Positions 39,929-48,400 of a DNA stretch of 64,000 bases are shown here, in pieces. The number at the start of each line of letters is the position of its first letter. Position 1 is the first letter of the stretch. The stretch is from Halorientalis litorea. Its GTDB lineage: Archaea; Halobacteriota; Halobacteria; Halobacteriales; Haloarculaceae. A program made the translations under genes and the position numbers. The stretch spans positions 1-64,000 of the forward strand of contig NZ_CP095483.1 of the NCBI RefSeq assembly GCF_023028225.1, given 5' to 3'. The notes under the pieces are model-generated. The model was not told the origin of the DNA. It worked only from the letters and a program-made list of their open reading frames with translations, and made no database searches.

Positions 39929-40570
39929 ATGTCAGAAGACCGCGACCGTGGGATCTCGCGGCGGGCGTTTACCAAGTCCGCCGTGGCGATCGGGGGACGG
40001 CCGCGCTTTCGGCCTGTCTGGACTGGTTCGGTGGTCCCGACGTACCACAGGGGCCGTCGGACCTGTCGACGCTCCCGACCCGTCAGCACGCCTGGAACGA
40101 CGCCCTCTCGACCGACCAGCACGGCAACGTGGTCACGCCGCGCCACCACGTCCTGCTTCTGGTGAATTACGACGGCAGCGGTCGGCCGTCCGACGGCGAC
40201 CGCGAACAGATCGAACGGGCGTTCCGAAGTCTCGAACACGCCTATCGGCGCGGGAACGACGGTCTCCTCTTTACGGTGGGATATACGCCGTCGTACTTCG
40301 AGCGGTTCGACGGGTCGCTCCCCGAGGCCGTCGACCTGCCGGCACCAGCGGCGATGGCTCCCTTCGAGGACCCCAACTTCGACACGCCCGACGCTATTGT
40401 CCACCTCGCCAGCGACTACTCGCAGGTCGTCCTCGCCGCCGAGGAAGTGCTGAAGGGCAACCAATCGGAACTCAACGGTATCGAGATGAACGGCTCCTTC
40501 GACGGCGTCTTCTCCGTCACGGATCGGCGGACGGGGTTCATCGGCGAGGGGCTCCCGGCCGAACACGACG
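39929..40570 (+). pseudogene. Frameshifted DUF7405-like Tat protein (possible EfeB/DyP-peroxidase analogue)
   Basis: Starts MSEDRDRGISRRAFTKSAVA with a twin-arginine motif. Near the G-run at 39992-39996 the frame shifts by one, and the protein continues TAALSACLDWFGGPDVPQGP, then VTPRHHVLLLVNYDGSG, FTVGYTPSYFERFDGSLPEA and FDTPDAIVHLASDYSQVVLA. It stops matching after TGFIGEGLPAEHDDV. The order and motifs are those I know from a haloarchaeal iron-dependent peroxidase-like family, DUF7405. The C-terminal half with the haem-binding part is deleted. Confidence 0.7.
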
Positions 40571-40801
40571 ATGTCGATGACGGCCACTGTCTCCGGGGGC
40601 GACGAGTCGAAATTCGACGGACCGCTGACCAGCACACTCGACCCCAACCTGAAGTACCACTACGGGGCAGTCGTCGACGGGATCGAGTCCGACGATACCA
40701 TCACGATCACACCCCAATCCGCCCCACAGGTCGCACGCCACGAGGGGTACGAGATGGCGTTTCTCGACATGTCGGAAATGGAGCTAACGGTCGAGAGCTA
40801 G
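40571..40801 (+). pseudogene. C-terminal fragment of a DUF7350-like protein
   Basis: FDGPLTSTLDPNLKYHYGAV then APQVARHEGYEMAFLDMSEM to the stop at 40801. This is the tail of a family I recall from haloarchaeal iron-uptake loci (p19-like, DUF7350). It is joined directly to the DUF7405 fragment in another frame, so one deletion removed the 3' end of one gene and the 5' end of the next. Confidence 0.6.
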
Positions 40802-40925
40802 CATACCGACGGAATATTCATCTCCGTGGACCTCGTTAATTTAGTAGTCGCCTGAGGAGGCGAAGTAGATCGGTGGTGGACTGTTCTCCAGCGTATACTC
40901 TGACCGAATCGACACCGGCGAGCCC

Positions 40926-41560: not shown

Positions 41561-41576
41561 TTTAGGCGCACCTAAA
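41561..41576. promoter_or_regulatory. Iron-repressor-like box 1 (TTTAGGCGCACCTAAA)
   Basis: 16-bp palindrome TTTAGG-N4-CCTAAA. It matches the core of DtxR/SirR/Idr-type metal-repressor operators (TTAGG...CCTAA). Centre is 36 bp from box 2. Confidence 0.7.
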
Positions 41577-41596
41577 AGACGTTACGCTTATTGGTT

Positions 41597-41612
41597 TTTA
41601 GGCATACCTAAA
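41597..41612. promoter_or_regulatory. Iron-repressor-like box 2 (TTTAGGCATACCTAAA)
   Basis: Second palindrome, ending 6 bp before the ATG at 41619, so a bound repressor would block the promoter of the downstream operon. Confidence 0.7.
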
Positions 41613-41618
41613 CCATAA

Positions 41619-41755
41619 TGGCGCGACTCAAACGAAATCTCCTGATGTCAAACAGGGTCATTCCCGGTGAGTTTGAATCTGCCGGTCCTGAGAGATCTAT
41701 TTCTCGGTTATCTACTTACGGTCTTGCAGGTGATTGCGGGGGATGTACATGGTGA
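41619..41755 (+). CDS. 45-aa peptide with C-terminal CGGC, first gene of the iron-box operon
   Basis: MARLKRNLLMSNRVIPGEFE onward, ending YGLAGDCGGCTW. The N-terminus is basic and the C-terminus has a CxxC. It begins 7 bp after the second iron-repressor-like box and its end overlaps the next gene's start by 13 bp, suggesting translational coupling. It could be a leader, a small metal-binding protein, a truncated gene start or a peptide precursor. No homologue recognised. Coding is supported by position more than by composition. Confidence 0.45.
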
Positions 41756-42663
41756 GACTGACGCTCGTCAGATTGAGGGAGCGCATCTACTCGCTCGCCA
41801 GCGACGAAGGGACGTATGATCTCATCTGTGTAGAGACCGGTGACCAGCCAATCCCCACGAATGGACTGCGAGTTGCGACTCGTGACGTTGCTCGGCGTGC
41901 AGCACGTGCGACTGAACAGTACCGGGCTATACTGCGTCAGTATGATTCACAGTTCCAGCACTCTGATCTCATCATCTGTCAAGGCAGTGACTGCCGATCA
42001 AATTATCCGGAGGGTTGTCCATTTCTTCGTTCTCCCGAACTGCCATCCAAAGACAGACGAGCTGGACAGAACCCGACATCGGAACGTCCACAGCTTGTGA
42101 TATTCTGTCTCAATGTTGCGGCAGCACTGTTCGAGACGCTCGCTTCCGGCGGCTACGAAACCATTGAATCGGCTATGATGGATGCATATGCTGACCTCGC
42201 AAGAACGCATACTGATCCCACGGATCTCTGTGTGCGGTTGCTCGAACGCATGGCACTCGAACTGGATGCTGGACTATCCGCCGGCGAGCAGCGCAGTGTC
42301 ATCAGCCATGTCGTGAGGCGACTCGAACCTACTGAATCGTCCACGGAACCGGTTAGAGCGACGTTTCGGCTGGTTCAGGAGATGGGCCTGGTCGGCGACT
42401 ACACGCAGACTCCGTGGTCAATCGATCTCATGGAGGGCATCCAATCAGCTGTTGTCCGCCTTTCAGAGTATGCACTGGAGCCCCAGAACGGCCAGCTTCC
42501 TGTATTACCAATCGTAGTCGATTTACAGCGCCGACGGCCTGAGTGGTCACTGTCTTCGCTTCGGGTTGTCGACGACGAGAACGGATGGCGAGTGACAGTC
42601 GAACAGAGCAGGGAAGCAACTCCGACCGGACGGGCAAGTGTCCCGATCCAGTCAAACGTATAG
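41743..42663 (+). CDS. Conserved haloarchaeal protein of unknown function (DUF7551/7552-like)
   Basis: 306 aa from ATG 41743, with GCAGGTGA 9 bp upstream; the frame can begin at TTG 41734 or ATG 41749. The N-terminal domain (about 1-80) reads LVRLRERIYSLASDEGTYDL and LRVATRDVARRAARATEQYR, a pattern I recall from haloarchaeal DUF7551/DUF7552 proteins. The middle is helical (QLVIFCLNVAAALFETLASGGYETIESAMMDAYADLA). The C-terminal 60 residues look like a beta-rich domain ending WRVTVEQSREA. No catalytic motif seen. It stands one base pair from the next gene, under two iron-repressor-like boxes. Confidence 0.75.
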   Translation: MYMVRLTLVRLRERIYSLASDEGTYDLICVETGDQPIPTNGLRVATRDVARRAARATEQYRAILRQYDSQFQHSDLIICQGSDCRSNYPEGCPFLRSPELPSKDRRAGQNPTSERPQLVIFCLNVAAALFETLASGGYETIESAMMDAYADLARTHTDPTDLCVRLLERMALELDAGLSAGEQRSVISHVVRRLEPTESSTEPVRATFRLVQEMGLVGDYTQTPWSIDLMEGIQSAVVRLSEYALEPQNGQLPVLPIVVDLQRRRPEWSLSSLRVVDDENGWRVTVEQSREATPTGRASVPIQSNV

Positions 42664-42664
42664 T

Positions 42665-43453
42665 ATGACCGTCGAAACCCACATTCACCGGGCTCGGGAC
42701 CGAGTACAGGCAGAACGAGACGCAGTCGATGCAAAGCTCGATGCGTTCGAATCATTCAGTGATCGGATCACAGCGATTCCAGCGGAGACGGTGTCATCCC
42801 ACTCACCAGCCGTCCTGGCGACGGCAGGGGGACAGATTACTTCCGACACGTCGACATCTGATCGGTGTCGAAAAGTCCGAACAGCGTTTGCGGAAACACT
42901 CCGTCCGCACAGTGTCGCCGATGTCGAGCAGTCCGAATCGTTGTTGGCAACCATTCAGAACGAACTCTCCGATTCCATCGCCGTTGCGCTCGCTCCAACG
43001 ACGGACACTTGCTTCACTGCCAAACTCAAGAACGCGGTTCTCTCAGCGACCGACGAACAGAAGACGAAAACAGCACTCATGTCTCAAGTTCTTGGGAAAG
43101 AACACCGGCAGCTGGATACCGCTACGAACCTCGTCGACGAAATCACGGACTGGATAGCTGACGCAGACGAAACACCACTAAGTCAACTGGGATACGAGGA
43201 GCTTCAGCAGCGCCATCAGACACTCTCGGTTCATCGAGACCGGTGCGAGGAACATCTGTACGAACGCCAAACGTTTCTCCAGAGAGTAACGAACCGGAAC
43301 CTTGATTCTGGGATTCCACATCGAAGTCTGATCTCGTATCTCTACCAGAATTTCTCAGTCGACCACCCGGTCCTTGCGACGGTCGCCCGTCTCGAAGACA
43401 CCTGTGCGACGTGCCAAAAGCCGGTTCGTGATCACCTCGTTCGGAGGGTCTGA
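42665..43453 (+). CDS. Helical DUF7260-like haloarchaeal protein
   Basis: 262 aa from ATG 42665, one base after the previous stop. It is almost wholly alpha-helical with coiled-coil character: HIHRARDRVQAERDAVDAKLDAFESFSDRI at the start, and QQRHQTLSVHRDRCEEHLYERQTFLQRV later. A C-terminal CATCQKPVRDH motif holds a CxxC that might bind metal. I recall this as DUF7260, often paired with the preceding family. Soluble, no signal. Coupled expression with the 41743 gene suggests that they act together. Confidence 0.75.
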   Translation: MTVETHIHRARDRVQAERDAVDAKLDAFESFSDRITAIPAETVSSHSPAVLATAGGQITSDTSTSDRCRKVRTAFAETLRPHSVADVEQSESLLATIQNELSDSIAVALAPTTDTCFTAKLKNAVLSATDEQKTKTALMSQVLGKEHRQLDTATNLVDEITDWIADADETPLSQLGYEELQQRHQTLSVHRDRCEEHLYERQTFLQRVTNRNLDSGIPHRSLISYLYQNFSVDHPVLATVARLEDTCATCQKPVRDHLVRRV

Positions 43454-43455
43454 CC

Positions 43456-43599
43456 ATGACACTGATCGGACCTCGACGGAAGCGTGCCCGGTTGTGGGCG
43501 GGTGTGTACGCTGGGGTGTTCGGTTCGGGAGACGATACTGATGGCGAGGACGAAACAGATACTGAATCCGACACCTCCTCAGAACCCGCCGGGACGTAG
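43456..43599 (+). CDS. 47-aa acidic tail-like protein, last gene of the operon
   Basis: MTLIGPRRKRARLWAGVYAG then a very acidic Thr/Asp/Glu-rich tail ending EPAGT. ATG 43456 is 2 bp after the previous stop. A basic patch followed by one short hydrophobic stretch (LWAGVYAGVFG) suggests membrane or protein association. Too short for family assignment, but spacing and composition favour a real gene. Confidence 0.55.
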   Translation: MTLIGPRRKRARLWAGVYAGVFGSGDDTDGEDETDTESDTSSEPAGT

Positions 43600-43679: not shown

Positions 43680-44441
43680 TCAGTCGTACTGAGATTCCGC
43701 GAGAGACTCATTGTGAGCGAACTCGGTTTCACCAGCCTGAACTGACCAGAGCATCGCGTACAGGCCGTCCCGCTCGTGCAGGCCAGAATGCGTTCCACGT
43801 TCGATGATCCGTCCGTCCTCGAGCACCAAGATTCGGTCAGCATCTTTGATCGTCGACAGGCGGTGGGCAATAGCGATGGTCGTCCGATCCTCGGTGAGAC
43901 GGTCGACCGACCGCTGAATAGCGAGTTCCGTCTTCGTATCCACGCTCGCCGTCGCTTCGTCGAGTACGACGATCTCCGGGACCTGCAGTAACATTCGGGC
44001 GATGGCGATGCGCTGCTGTTGGCCACCCGAGAGTTCGACGCCGCGTTCACCGACTCGGGTCTCGTACCCGTCCGGAAGTTCGGTGATGAACTCGTGGGCT
44101 TGGGCCGCACGCGCCGCCTCTCGGAGTTCGTCGTCGCTCGCCTCGAACTGGCCGTAGCGGATGTTCGCCGTGATCGTCCCGTCGAAGAGGAACGTGTCCT
44201 GACTGACGTAGCCGATAGATTGCCGGAGGCTCGCGGTCGTCACCTCCCGGACATCGTGACCATCGACGCGAACTGCGCCACCGGTCACATCGTACAGTCG
44301 CAAGAGGATTTTCGCCGTCGTCGATTTCCCCGACCCCGTGGGGCCGACCAGTGCAACTGTTTCACCCGGGTCGGCATCGAACGAGACCTCGTCGAGAACC
44401 GCCTCACCGTCGTCATAGGCGAAACTGACTTTGTCGTACCG
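43680..44441 (-). pseudogene. ABC exporter: ATP-binding domain only, 5' part lost
   Basis: The nucleotide-binding domain is complete: RYDKVSFAYDDGEAVLDEVS, Walker A GPTGSGKST, Q-loop YVSQDTFLFDG, signature ELSGGQQQRIAIARMLL, Walker B IVVLDEATASVD, and H-loop IAIAHRLSTI. The preceding membrane domain (about 330 residues) is missing. Upstream of about 44441 the frame is antisense to the IS200 transposase, so a rearrangement replaced the 5' half of the gene. The intact parent would be a type IV exporter half-transporter. The remaining fragment has no promoter or start of its own. Confidence 0.85.
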
Positions 44442-44443
44442 AA

Positions 44444-44822
44444 CTACACGGTGTACAACGTCAACTACCACTTCGTGTGGTGTCCGAAGTACCGCCACGC
44501 GATACTCGAACCAATCGAGGATTCGCTGGAAGCGAGTTTCCGCGACGTGTGCGACGAGTACGGCTACGAGATACTTTCGCTCCACATCTCACCAGACCAC
44601 GTACACCTGTTCCTTTCCGCCCACCCGAAGCACGCACCGAGCAAGATCGTGCGAACGGACAAGAGCATCACGGCGCGGGAGATGTGGGAACAGCACGAAC
44701 CGTTCTTGGAGTAGTATCTGTGGGGTGGCGGATTTTGGGAGGAATCGTACTACGTTGGGACGGCAGGCGATGTTTCGACCGACACGATTGAGCAGTATAT
44801 CGAGCGAACGGAACACCTCTAA
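44444..44822 (+). pseudogene. tnpA: tnpA (Y1 transposase) lacking its first codons and carrying an amber codon
   Basis: Frame from YTVYNVNYHFVWCPKYRHAI through HISPDHVHLFLSAHPKHAPS (HUH metal site H-x-H) to EQHEPFLE, then TAG at 44712-44714 where family members have Glu or Asp, then in the same frame YLWGGGFWEESYYVGTAGDV and DTIEQYIERTEHL with TAA at 44820-44822. The catalytic tyrosine (EQYIERTE) lies after the amber, so a truncated product could not cleave DNA. The N-terminus is cut by the junction with the ABC gene. Confidence 0.85.
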
Positions 44823-44866: not shown

Positions 44867-45217
44867 CGGCCTGCTCCGCCTGTAGGACTCGTCGTCGTCG
44901 GCCAGTCGGTCCGCAAGGGTCGATACCGCATCCGTCGCGGTCTCGGGTTCAGCCTCCGCAACTGTGACAAGTGCTTTCGCAGTGGTCAACCGCACCGCTC
45001 GTTGCTCGTCGCCAAGAAATCCGACCAGGGATGACAGCAGCGGCGTGACGGTTCGTCCCTCCTCACCGCACTCCGTCACTCTACGGATGGCCTTCTTCGG
45101 TGTTTCCGGGTCGGCGGTTCTGACACGGTCGAGCGCGGTGCTTGCCGCGTCGAATTGGCCAGTCTCGATCAGTGTCGACAGCCGGTCGGGGGAGGACTGT
45201 CGTGCTGAGTCATCCAT
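44819..45217 (-). pseudogene. HEAT-repeat protein, 3' end truncated by the IS200 element
   Basis: From ATG 45217: MDDSARQSSPDRLSTLIETG, then HEAT-like helical pairs TPKKAIRRVTECGEEGRTVTPLLSSLVGF and RAVRLTTAKALVTVAEAEPE. After about 100 residues the frame runs into the insertion element's right end (SGLDPEGEARKPR). Intact relatives have further HEAT repeats and in haloarchaea often adjoin transport or regulatory genes. What is left may still make a short protein, but it is not the native one. Confidence 0.7.
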
Positions 45218-45344
45218 CGTAGTACAGCGCAGTTGGCCAGTGCTACTCACCCCATCAATAAGAAAGTACGTAGGAGGACCGCTTCCTTCAGTCACGAACG
45301 CGACAATCCACGTGCGTCCCGGAGGGCCAGCGACCCCTCGAGAG

Positions 45345-45971
45345 TTACCCGTTGACGATCCGTCTGCGTTTGACGCTCGTCTCGTCGACGGTCGGCTGGT
45401 CGTGGGCGAGCCGGACCGTCGTGACGGAACACTCACCCGGAGCGTACGCCCCGAACCTGTCGACCGGGTCAGCACCAGCGATGGTCCCGAGAACCGTCGC
45501 GATCGGGAAATCGTGCGTAACCACGAGAATCCGCTCGTCGTCGCCAGCCTCCTCACACAGCCGACGCCACCGATCCAGGATGCGATGGCGTCCCGCGGTC
45601 AGCGTCTCCCCGCTCCGCGGAAGGGGCTGTAGCACGTCCACGTCGGTTCGCGGGGAGTCCGGCTCGTCGGTGAGTGCCAGTTCCTCGTAGGCGAGGCCTT
45701 GGTACACACCGGCGTCGCGCGGACGCCACGCCGGTTCGATGGTTGGCCGTGGCTCGACGCCCGCGAGACGGACGAGTGCGGCCGTCTCCCGTGCGGCGAG
45801 CGTCTCGGCGGCGTACACCCGGTCGAACTCGTACGTCGAGGCGAGCCCCTGCCCGATCGTCTCGACCGACTCGCGGCCGGCCCGAGTGAGTGGGACGGGC
45901 GCGTGCCCGTGCAGGCGGTCCTCTCGATCCCATTCGGTCTCTCCGTGTCGTAGCAAAACGATCTCTGTCAT
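45345..45971 (-). CDS. Histidine phosphatase (phosphoglycerate-mutase-like)
   Basis: 208 aa. The RHG motif IVLLRHGETEWDREDRLHGH is at residues 4-23, and the second catalytic His is in ILVVTHDFPIATVLGTIAGAD near 150-170. The acid residue is in LPRSGETL. It removes phosphate from small phosphorylated molecules. It is downstream of and on the same strand as the ComA-like gene (99-bp gap), so it may dephosphorylate that enzyme's product, in the way that ComB follows ComA in other archaea. Substrate not established. Confidence 0.85.
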   Translation of the reverse strand: MTEIVLLRHGETEWDREDRLHGHAPVPLTRAGRESVETIGQGLASTYEFDRVYAAETLAARETAALVRLAGVEPRPTIEPAWRPRDAGVYQGLAYEELALTDEPDSPRTDVDVLQPLPRSGETLTAGRHRILDRWRRLCEEAGDDERILVVTHDFPIATVLGTIAGADPVDRFGAYAPGECSVTTVRLAHDQPTVDETSVKRRRIVNG

Positions 45972-46070
45972 GGTCTGGTGGATGGCAACGGTGTGGTTGT
46001 GCGCCGTGGACGAGTGCGTCCCGACGCTGCTGCCGCAGGTGTCTGTCGGTCCAACCGGTTTGGACGGCGG

Positions 46071-46898
46071 TCACTCCTCGCGACGGAACGTCGTCGCCCG
46101 GCCCCAGCTGGTCGTTTTCCCCCACAGGCCTGAGCGCATACACTCGAGTTCGACGATCTGGGAGTTGTCGACGAAGAGGTTCACGTTCGGCCCGAAGTTC
46201 TTGACGTACCACTCGAACATCTCCGGCCCCGGGGCCTCGAACACGAGATTCTCCATCCCGAGTTCGTTGGCCAGTTCGTAGACCACGTCCGTCCGCCACT
46301 CGTGGACCTCTTCGGTGATCCCCTCGGCTTCGACCATCAGAAGGTCCGCGCCGGCGTCGAGGTGGCGCTGTCCCTCCCGAATGGCCATCGACGGGTCCTG
46401 CTGGCCCTCGCGCTCCAGGTCGTCCGGATCGGAGGCCCCGCCGGCCCCGAACTGGACGTTGATCTCCGGCTTCGGCTTGAGGCCGTAGTCCGCGGTCAGT
46501 TCGGTCAGTGCAACGAGGTCTTCCGTGTCGATAGCCAGAAAGCCACTGGATATCTCGACGATGTCGAAGCCGAGCGTCTTCGCCTCGGCGACGTAATCCT
46601 CGACTTTGTCGTTGTCACGCACGAGTACGTTCTCGATGAACCCACCCGTCGAAACCTCGACGTCGTAGTCGTGGCAGATACCGATGAGTTCCTCGACAGT
46701 GTCGCGGTCCATCAGCGCGAACGACCCGCCGGAGAACTTGTAGATGTCGACGTACTGCCCCATCGTTTCGAGGATATCACGGAGCTCTCGCGGACCCATC
46801 GGATCGTAGTATGGGCCGCGAATCTCCGTGATTCCCTTCGTGCGCGGTTTCTCGGGTCTGTCGTTGACGTGCAGGAAGTCGAACGCTCGTTCTGACAT
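46071..46898 (-). CDS. ComA-like (phosphosulfolactate synthase family) protein
   Basis: 275 aa from ATG 46898 (MSERAFDFLHVNDRPEKP); ATG 46904 adds two residues. It is a TIM-barrel of PF02679. Family blocks visible are KPRTKGITEIRGPYY, VDIYKFSGGSFAL, VEVSTGGFIENVLVRD, FDIVEISSGFLAI and LMVEAEGITEE. Authentic ComA joins sulfite to phosphoenolpyruvate for coenzyme M, which haloarchaea are not known to make. This member may use another nucleophile. A perfect iron-repressor-like palindrome sits 37 bp upstream (46935-46950). Confidence 0.88.
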   Translation of the reverse strand: MSERAFDFLHVNDRPEKPRTKGITEIRGPYYDPMGPRELRDILETMGQYVDIYKFSGGSFALMDRDTVEELIGICHDYDVEVSTGGFIENVLVRDNDKVEDYVAEAKTLGFDIVEISSGFLAIDTEDLVALTELTADYGLKPKPEINVQFGAGGASDPDDLEREGQQDPSMAIREGQRHLDAGADLLMVEAEGITEEVHEWRTDVVYELANELGMENLVFEAPGPEMFEWYVKNFGPNVNLFVDNSQIVELECMRSGLWGKTTSWGRATTFRREE

Positions 46899-46934
46899 GT
46901 GCATGACTCCCTACAGTGGCCACCCATTTGTAGT

Positions 46935-46950
46935 TTTAGGCTAGCCTAAA
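46935..46950. promoter_or_regulatory. Iron-repressor-like box 3 (TTTAGGCTAGCCTAAA)
   Basis: Perfect 16-bp palindrome upstream of the ComA-like gene. It is the cleanest of the five boxes and within normal promoter distance of the 46898 start. Confidence 0.75.
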
Positions 46951-47047
46951 ACAAGCCACAGTATTGCGTTTTCCGGCCCAGAAGCTATCGACGGGATGGT
47001 TGCCGACGGGTTCGAGCGGAAGGTCAGTGAGTCAGGCTCGCTCCCGG

Positions 47048-48400
47048 TTAGTTCAGGAGGTCCACCAGATCCGATACCTCGTAGTGTTCGAGGTTCCTGA
47101 CCGTCTCGATGATCTCGTTGCGGCGCGACTCGTCGTATCGGTCGCGGGTCATGATCTCGAATTTCTCTTCGACCTGCTCCCAGTCCATCGGGTTGTTGGG
47201 GTGACCCTGGAAGTCGTCCTTGAGGACTTCGTGACTTGTTCCATCCGTGAGCGTGATCGTCAGGTTCGCGGGCATTTCGCCGGATTCGAACCGGTCGGTC
47301 AGGTCGGGATCTTCCTCGACTGTGACTTTGCGCAGGAGTGACTGCACGTCATCGCGCTGGATTCGCTCTGGGTCGTAGGCGTCGTTGGTCATCTCACGGT
47401 CGATCAGCGCGGCCGCAAGCATGTAGGGCAGCGAGTGGTCGGCCTGGGCTTTCGTCTCGACTTCGTGACGGTCGCCTTCGCCACCGCCGATGATCAGTTT
47501 CGCGCCGTGGAACGTATCGAGGTGGATCGATTCGACTTGGTCGTGATCGAGGTCGTGCATCTCGGCCAGTTCGATGATGCCTTCGACGGCCGACTGGGCG
47601 TAGGTCTCGGCGACGTAGCGCTTGGTCATCGTATCGAAGACGTGTTCACATCCTGGGTCCAGCTCCACGTCGAACTCGTCACTGATGATGTGTTTCCACC
47701 CCTTTTGGCCCTCGAAGAGGTTGACGGGCCCCTCCATGCCGTTTTCGGCCAGCAGACAGGAGTAGACGCCGTTCCGGGCGGCGTTCGCGCTGGCCATTCC
47801 TTTCCACTCGTTGATACCGCCTGTCCGGGTAACCCGGAGTGCGTTGTGTGCGGTCCCGGCGATGCCGACGGCGTTGCGTAGCTGCTCGTGGTCGAGACCC
47901 AGAATCGCACCCGATCCGGCGGCCGCGGACAACACTGTGTGCGTAACATGGTCCCAGCCTTTGTCTCGTACTGGCGCGTTCCACGCGAGTTCACCCTGGA
48001 GTTCGTAGGACACACCGACTGCCTCGATGAGGTCTTTTCCCGTGGCATCTTCCCGTTCACCACAGGCGATGACGCTCGCGATGTTGTCGCTCGGGTGTGG
48101 TGTCTCACCAGGTGCCAAAAAGGAGTCCATGTAGTCCAGGTAGCGAGTCAACGCCGTGTTGTGCATCGCTGCTTGCGACGGTGATGCAGTGAGTTCTCGA
48201 CCCCAGAGCGTACAGGAACCGTCACTGCTTACATCCGAAACCGTCTCTGCGACGACTTCCACTGGTGGTTCTCCCAGTGCACCGACACCGATTCCGACGG
48301 AGTCGAGCACTCGTTTCTTGAGTTCTTCGACCACTTGGTCGCCGAACTCGTCGAACTCGACGGCCTGTACGAACCCGGCAATCGTCTCTGTCGTTGCCAT
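47048..48400 (-). CDS. MmgE/PrpD-family protein
   Basis: 450 aa, usual length for the 2-methylcitrate dehydratase/aconitate decarboxylase family (PF03972). Diagnostic runs are KKRVLDSVGIGVGALGEPPV, AAMHNTALTRYLDYMDSFLA, PHPSDNIASVIACGE and the C-terminal QADHSLPYMLAAALIDREMT. Enzymes of this fold dehydrate or decarboxylate tricarboxylates without an iron-sulfur cluster. No prpB, prpC or acnB is nearby, so a propionate methylcitrate cycle is not indicated. Two iron-repressor-like boxes directly precede the start at 48400, which suggests expression in low iron, fitting a cluster-free substitute enzyme or metallophore precursor route. Confidence 0.88.
   Translation of the reverse strand: MATTETIAGFVQAVEFDEFGDQVVEELKKRVLDSVGIGVGALGEPPVEVVAETVSDVSSDGSCTLWGRELTASPSQAAMHNTALTRYLDYMDSFLAPGETPHPSDNIASVIACGEREDATGKDLIEAVGVSYELQGELAWNAPVRDKGWDHVTHTVLSAAAGSGAILGLDHEQLRNAVGIAGTAHNALRVTRTGGINEWKGMASANAARNGVYSCLLAENGMEGPVNLFEGQKGWKHIISDEFDVELDPGCEHVFDTMTKRYVAETYAQSAVEGIIELAEMHDLDHDQVESIHLDTFHGAKLIIGGGEGDRHEVETKAQADHSLPYMLAAALIDREMTNDAYDPERIQRDDVQSLLRKVTVEEDPDLTDRFESGEMPANLTITLTDGTSHEVLKDDFQGHPNNPMDWEQVEEKFEIMTRDRYDESRRNEIIETVRNLEHYEVSDLVDLLN

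Follow-up and report, generated by a model that had tools for sequence, protein, structure and literature searches.

Which process is served by a compact operon of haloarchaeal proteins without assigned function that is preceded by two perfect iron boxes? The operon lies on the plus strand of Halorientalis litorea DNA in what we refer to as the window, that is, the whole 64,000-nucleotide stretch analysed here, at the start of a plasmid-like contig of 156,912 bp. A sequence-only reading had described it as an operon of four genes without known function under an iron-responsive promoter.

Promoter and genes of the operon

The promoter elements and ORFs of the locus are as follows:

41562..41575, no strand assigned: DtxR/IdeR-type iron box 1 (TTAGGCGCACCTAA), an exact match to the 14-bp consensus
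41587..41594, plus strand: TATA-like element (CTTATTGG) between the boxes, assigned by its position
41598..41611, no strand assigned: DtxR/IdeR-type iron box 2 (TTAGGCATACCTAA), an exact match over the expected transcription start region
41618..41755, plus strand: 45-aa CxxC ORF, most likely 5' leader; no relatives and no conserved ORF in homologous leaders
41749..42663, plus strand: DUF7552-DUF7551 protein, 304 aa (PF24422, E 3e-26; PF24420, E 2.5e-54); start chosen by alignment
42665..43453, plus strand: DUF7260 protein, 262 aa, all-helical with long coiled-coil helices (PF23921, E 4e-73)
43456..43599, plus strand: 47-aa member of a small conserved family without a name; head PRRxRAxLWxxxYxxxFG, tail acidic

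The 14-mer TTAGGNNNNCCTAA has been proposed, in a structural study (PMC8464063) of IdeR, as the consensus to which a single IdeR/DtxR dimer binds, and given their identity with this consensus, the two window boxes are putative DtxR/IdeR operators. Both match it exactly and are separated by 36 bp, a spacing that is kept in relatives; the TATA-like element has a counterpart (CTTATCAT) at the equal position in Natrinema relatives. The window contains five matches to the 14-mer, all of them exact, compared to 0.26 expected at one mismatch or fewer, and the whole 3.2-Mb genome contains 17 exact sites, compared to 2 in the reversed control. Two DtxR-family (PF02742) genes are present in the genome, both chromosomal. 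In view of the two exact boxes, the genome-wide counts and the boxes upstream of relatives described below, the iron-responsive promoter proposed earlier holds, and the operon almost certainly belongs to a DtxR/IdeR-type iron regulon.

The locus has four ORFs, all on the plus strand: 41618-41755 (45 aa), 41743-42663 (306 aa), 42665-43453 (262 aa) and 43456-43599 (47 aa). These are the four ORFs reported before, except that the start given as 41619 was off by one, and their tight packing is borne out: adjacent ORFs either overlap or lie 1-2 bp apart. The count of four genes is not, although the description as an iron-responsive operon of unknown proteins stands: the first ORF, which had been taken for a CxxC peptide gene, is very likely no gene at all. 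It has no relatives in the loci searched, its composition is non-coding-like (GC3 0.39, pI 8.9), and the chance of such a frame remaining open upon shuffling is 11%. At the equivalent place, Natrinema relatives have non-conserved untranslated leaders that end in GGAGG-type ribosome sites. The absence of relatives, the non-conserved leaders and the non-coding composition together lead us to reject a conserved CxxC or leader peptide, and the ORF is probably the 5' leader of the operon. Since its start coincides with the expected transcription start and its 3' end overlaps the next gene, the leader may still be translated.

For the next gene, an alternative ATG at 41743 gives 306 aa; the ATG at 41749 (304 aa) is preferred on account of the homologue alignment and of a GGGGG Shine-Dalgarno-like run at 41738-41742. 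Its product passes the curated cut-offs for DUF7552 (91.9 bits against 27) and DUF7551 (184.6 against 52.6), and the 262-aa protein passes that for DUF7260 (246.3 against 27). The earlier statement that none of the proteins has a known function is therefore accurate, yet the two large ones already belong to Pfam families, to which Pfam assigns no function. A search of NCBIfam with the operon proteins gave no matches. In the literature searched, we found no described function for these proteins, which may nevertheless have been mentioned as iron-regulated genes, no papers on DUF7260 and no experiment on the window operon. The 47-aa acidic protein of the earlier description proves to belong to a conserved small family (PRRxRAxxWxxxYLxxFG head, acidic tail); a profile search identified its homologues in 16 loci, next to DUF7551/DUF7260; they are 40-61 aa long, apart from one that was read as 81 aa because of an upstream start.

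Iron boxes and iron-uptake genes around DUF7551 in haloarchaea

DUF7551 is present in 168 of the 292 sampled haloarchaeal genomes, which suggests that it is a common part of the haloarchaeal iron-shortage response without an assigned role. A first scan of genome contigs with the window DUF7551 protein as the query detected no relatives, the query being too divergent; the relative set consists of 80 named haloarchaeal DUF7551 loci, 1.4 Mb in total. These loci contain 166 exact boxes, compared to none in the reversed control and none in Markov-resampled sequences. Of the 80 loci, 74 have an exact box in the 8 kb upstream, at 400 nt or less from the DUF7551 gene in 44 and farther away in 30, and the spacing between neighbouring boxes is 36 bp in 48 cases, 35 bp in 15 and 37 bp in 7. 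In many single-gene copies of DUF7551, including the chromosomal copy of the H. litorea genome, the box ends 1 nt before the start codon. The sequence-only reading had regarded relatives without boxes throughout as the result that would speak against it and had proposed a search for the same gene order with boxes in other Halobacteria; this comparison gave the opposite result, with boxes upstream in these 74 loci, in the company of iron-uptake genes.

In annotated plasmid relatives, DUF7551 is accompanied by FecB-like binding proteins, FecCD permeases, ATPases (FecE) and FAD-dependent oxidoreductases, and further by HEAT proteins, exporter-type ABC proteins, DtxR-type (Fe_dep_repress) regulators and DpsA. 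On the same strand, between -3.5 and +2.5 kb, DUF7260 is encoded in 34 of the 80 loci, a binding protein in 30, an FAD oxidoreductase in 18 and DtxR in 12. The binding protein, permease and ATPase of the ferric-siderophore uptake operon, present in many relatives, are missing from the window operon.

The DtxR genes could be taken to indicate that the operon adjusts the activity of the iron repressor itself, sequestration of DtxR being one possible way. In several loci (e.g. L105, L107, L120, L139, L167), a DtxR-family gene follows the DUF7551, DUF7260 and acidic-protein genes in a conserved order, and 12 of the 80 named loci have a DtxR gene close by on the same strand. However, neither the window operon nor most of the loci have a DtxR gene alongside, and where the DtxR genes of an iron operon are autoregulated, a partner of this kind is unnecessary, so that a function of the operon as a regulatory partner of DtxR appears improbable.

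The plasmid carries a second iron-box unit on the minus strand (45345-48400; boxes at 46936, 48406 and 48440), which consists of an MmgE/PrpD gene with two boxes 34 bp apart, a gene for ComA phosphosulfolactate synthase with one box and then a histidine phosphatase gene; the prpD-comA pair recurs in other haloarchaea. As a counter-control, plasmid prpD has boxes and 0 of 10 prpD relatives do, which indicates that the association between DUF7551 and boxes is no general property of these genomes. By the same count, iron control of the plasmid prpD-comA pair looks newly acquired.

Two further observations concern iron clusters elsewhere. A chromosomal cluster of the H. litorea genome (L199, G000:C1:152500-171500) contains six exact boxes, with genes for DpsA, FecB/FecC/FecE-like proteins and a second iron ABC transporter. 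In the iron operons of L042, L129, L139 and other loci, a 57-aa unnamed protein adjoins the binding-protein and FAD-oxidoreductase genes; its L042 copy has no Pfam match.

DUF7260 is found in 118 of 145 genomes, mostly without a link to iron, and 14 of 20 sampled copies not linked to DUF7551 have no box, which rules out DUF7260 as an iron-specific family. The C-terminal CxxC of the 262-aa protein, pointed out in the sequence-only reading, is nearly invariant in DUF7551-linked copies (at least 90%) but is not conserved in the wider family. Among the matches listed, 8 of 11 stand-alone DUF7552 genes adjoin a DUF7260 gene, which suggests that the two probably work together, and gene adjacency of this kind makes a DUF7552-DUF7260 contact probable. 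Several stand-alone DUF7552 genes have iron boxes. Homology between DUF7551 and DUF7260 was considered and is not believed (hhalign probability 8%).

The helical module of DUF7551 and the iron-box kinases

In the AF2 model of the DUF7552-DUF7551 protein (pLDDT 89.6), a small N-terminal domain of the alpha/beta type is followed by a helical bundle, and the end of the chain is rich in beta structure. The 262-aa protein, already described as helical, is all-helical in its AF2 model (pLDDT 84.5), with coiled-coil helices at 119-167 and 177-209. Foldseek gave no useful fold match for the DUF7260 model, and a sequence search of solved structures found none for DUF7551 and only chance coiled-coil matches for DUF7260.

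For the DUF7552-DUF7551 model, the best Foldseek E-value is 0.02, with TM-scores below 0.5 for the relevant matches. The top matches include DmpR, PoxR, MopR, soluble guanylate cyclase, H-NOX, a TRAPP subunit and YslB, which we take to represent one superfamily, and could accordingly be read as a sign that the C-terminal part of DUF7551 is a ligand sensor of the V4R/H-NOX kind, a distant member of this haem/phenol-binding superfamily. Against this reading, the E-values range from 0.02 to 0.2, the TM-scores are mostly 0.25-0.42, and when the C-terminal region is compared with haloarchaeal V4R proteins by hhalign, the probability is 0.2%. Such homology is thus hardly likely; we rejected it for want of profile support and retain the fold similarity as a hint and a weak lead.

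A far stronger match comes from within the iron loci themselves. The profile of the DUF7551 C-terminal region matched the N-terminus of PAS-histidine kinases in two of them, L114, where the kinase gene lies 3' of the acidic-protein gene, and L076, where the kinase has its own box. These N-termini match Pfam DUF7551 with E-values of 1e-6 and 1e-4, their scores falling short of the cut-off; hhalign of the DUF7551 helical region against the kinase N-terminal domain gives a probability of 97.3% (E 2e-11). The reverse search with the kinase N-terminal domain retrieved about 22 kinases in 194 genomes, along with DUF7551 proteins at E ~1e-5. An exact box is located at the start codon in 19 of the 22 kinase genes; two have a one-mismatch box, one of these further upstream of an incomplete match, and the remaining one sits inside a DUF7551 operon. 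The kinase genes are scattered (loci L249-L270 and L281-L300), and no conserved neighbour of the iron-box kinases was found. By profile comparison, then, a family of PAS-histidine kinases carries the helical part of DUF7551 at the N-terminus as its input domain, a relationship that is new here. The boxes at both the kinase genes and the DUF7551 operons link the helical module to the iron regulon in two different types of protein.

The module common to DUF7551 and the iron-box kinases leads us to favour, tentatively, a role of DUF7551 as a cytosolic sensor or adaptor in iron starvation. The main rival, suggested by the operon company and the conserved cysteines, is a cytosolic accessory of iron or siderophore processing: DUF7552-DUF7551 would receive the ferric siderophore or released iron after import by FecCD/FecE, an FAD/NAD(P) oxidoreductase partner would free or store the iron, and DUF7260 would be a scaffold. 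DUF7551 is indeed often encoded at the 3' end of operons with FecB-like proteins (30/80) and FAD oxidoreductases (18/80). Furthermore, Cys27, Cys120 and Cys161 are invariant across 61 DUF7551 sequences and are all kept in the window copy, which lacks the nearly invariant His121; three invariant cysteines are unusual for haloarchaeal cytosolic proteins, and judging from the helix order in the model, Cys120 and Cys161 could lie on one side of the fold. But many DUF7551 genes are solitary, with a box of their own and no transporter nearby (e.g. L044, L147, L151, L183), and the helical module recurs in kinases without an adjoining transporter, so we consider the accessory role possible and, on balance, unlikely. 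The three cysteines are not kept in the kinase input domain, the ligand of which may therefore differ.

Origin of the plasmid copy, proposed role and relation to known systems

In the tree, the window DUF7551 protein falls in a clade with copies from Haladaptatus and Halococcus, well apart from the same-genus chromosomal copies, which group with Halorientalis persicus; its branch is long (1.09), and its exact placement has weak support. The GC3 of the operon is 0.56-0.60, compared to 0.70-0.84 in three neighbouring genes. Outside the operon, two remnants represent protein types found in the iron clusters of relatives:

43680..44585, minus strand: remnant of an exporter-type ABC protein (nucleotide-binding part)
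44882..45229, minus strand: remnant of a HEAT-repeat protein

The former shows 61% identity to residues 344-624 of the cluster exporter of Halobaculum sp. CBA1158, with the membrane part missing, and the latter 46% identity to a Halobellus limi HEAT protein over 105 aa. Between the two lies a fragment resembling an IS200-type transposase (44423-44714, plus strand; judged by eye from the translation), which may explain the missing membrane part of the exporter. Just upstream of the operon, overlapping-frame remnants of DUF7405/DUF7350 genes (40129-40836 and 40571-40798, plus strand) probably represent a broken gene cluster. The simplest reading is that the window copy was probably acquired horizontally, as a fragment of an iron cluster in which this operon is still intact.

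In view of the broken neighbours, the long branch and the lost His121, the window copy may also be in decay, or it may act solely in trans. In the extreme case, it would be a plasmid passenger without a present function, in line with the DUF7405/DUF7350 remnants on one side and the ABC exporter, transposase-like and HEAT fragments on the other, and with the low GC3. The three conserved frames are intact, however, the boxes are perfect and at the conserved 36-bp spacing, and Cys27, Cys120 and Cys161 are kept, which makes mere decay an unlikely account.

Returning to the sensor/adaptor reading, we propose the following scheme. DtxR/IdeR proteins repress transcription when iron-loaded and bound at the operator. 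Under replete iron, such a repressor would occupy both boxes, covering the TATA and start region and blocking transcription; when iron is scarce, the operon would be switched on. Its products would be a soluble two-domain DUF7552-DUF7551 protein, the coiled-coil partner DUF7260, whose probable point of contact is the DUF7552 domain, and a small acidic protein. The DUF7551 helical module, related to the input domain of the iron-box PAS-histidine kinases, would act as a cytosolic sensor or adaptor of iron status beside the genes for ferric-siderophore uptake and reduction. As a whole, this explanation, in which a haloarchaeal iron-starvation operon reached the plasmid by horizontal transfer, is repressed by DtxR and encodes a sensor/adaptor, has in our estimate a probability of roughly 45%. 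Its firm part, at the level of sequence, comprises the boxes, the gene order, the conservation, the family membership and the domain shared with kinases.

More speculatively, a second layer of iron sensing might exist, in which the DtxR-box-induced helical module, stand-alone and at kinase N-termini, would detect an intracellular iron-related signal and link siderophore uptake to a phosphorelay. The module common to DUF7551 and the kinases would then offer a testable route from iron state to a two-component system in archaea, one that would go beyond the DtxR repressors themselves. The question can be addressed now, in genetically tractable Haloferax species, which have a DUF7551 gene with a box directly upstream, at a distance of about 86 nt in L148 and L158.

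The operon is no new kind of system but an undescribed part of the known iron-starvation response. It resembles the regulons of DtxR, IdeR, SirR and Idr, represented by Idr1/Idr2 of Halobacterium salinarum and by Idr, SirR and TroR of Haloferax volcanii, in the identical 14-bp operator over the promoter, in the DtxR-family genes of the genome and in the iron-uptake neighbours of its relatives; it differs in that the controlled genes have no assigned function and the putative operators are known here from sequence. Bacterial DtxR/IdeR operators form an overlapping 19-bp site, whereas the window operon has paired boxes at 36 bp. The haloarchaeal FecB/FecCD/FecE siderophore-uptake operons with FAD oxidoreductases have the same boxes and in relatives are often part of the same operon, but the window operon contains none of their genes and is adjoined only by the exporter-type ABC and HEAT remnants. 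The stand-alone H-NOX/V4R sensors that act with histidine kinases offer an analogy, in that a soluble sensor-type protein and kinases would take part in one response; their fold similarity to DUF7551 is weak, with no sequence relationship detected, and in the case of DUF7551, the kinase itself has the common module.
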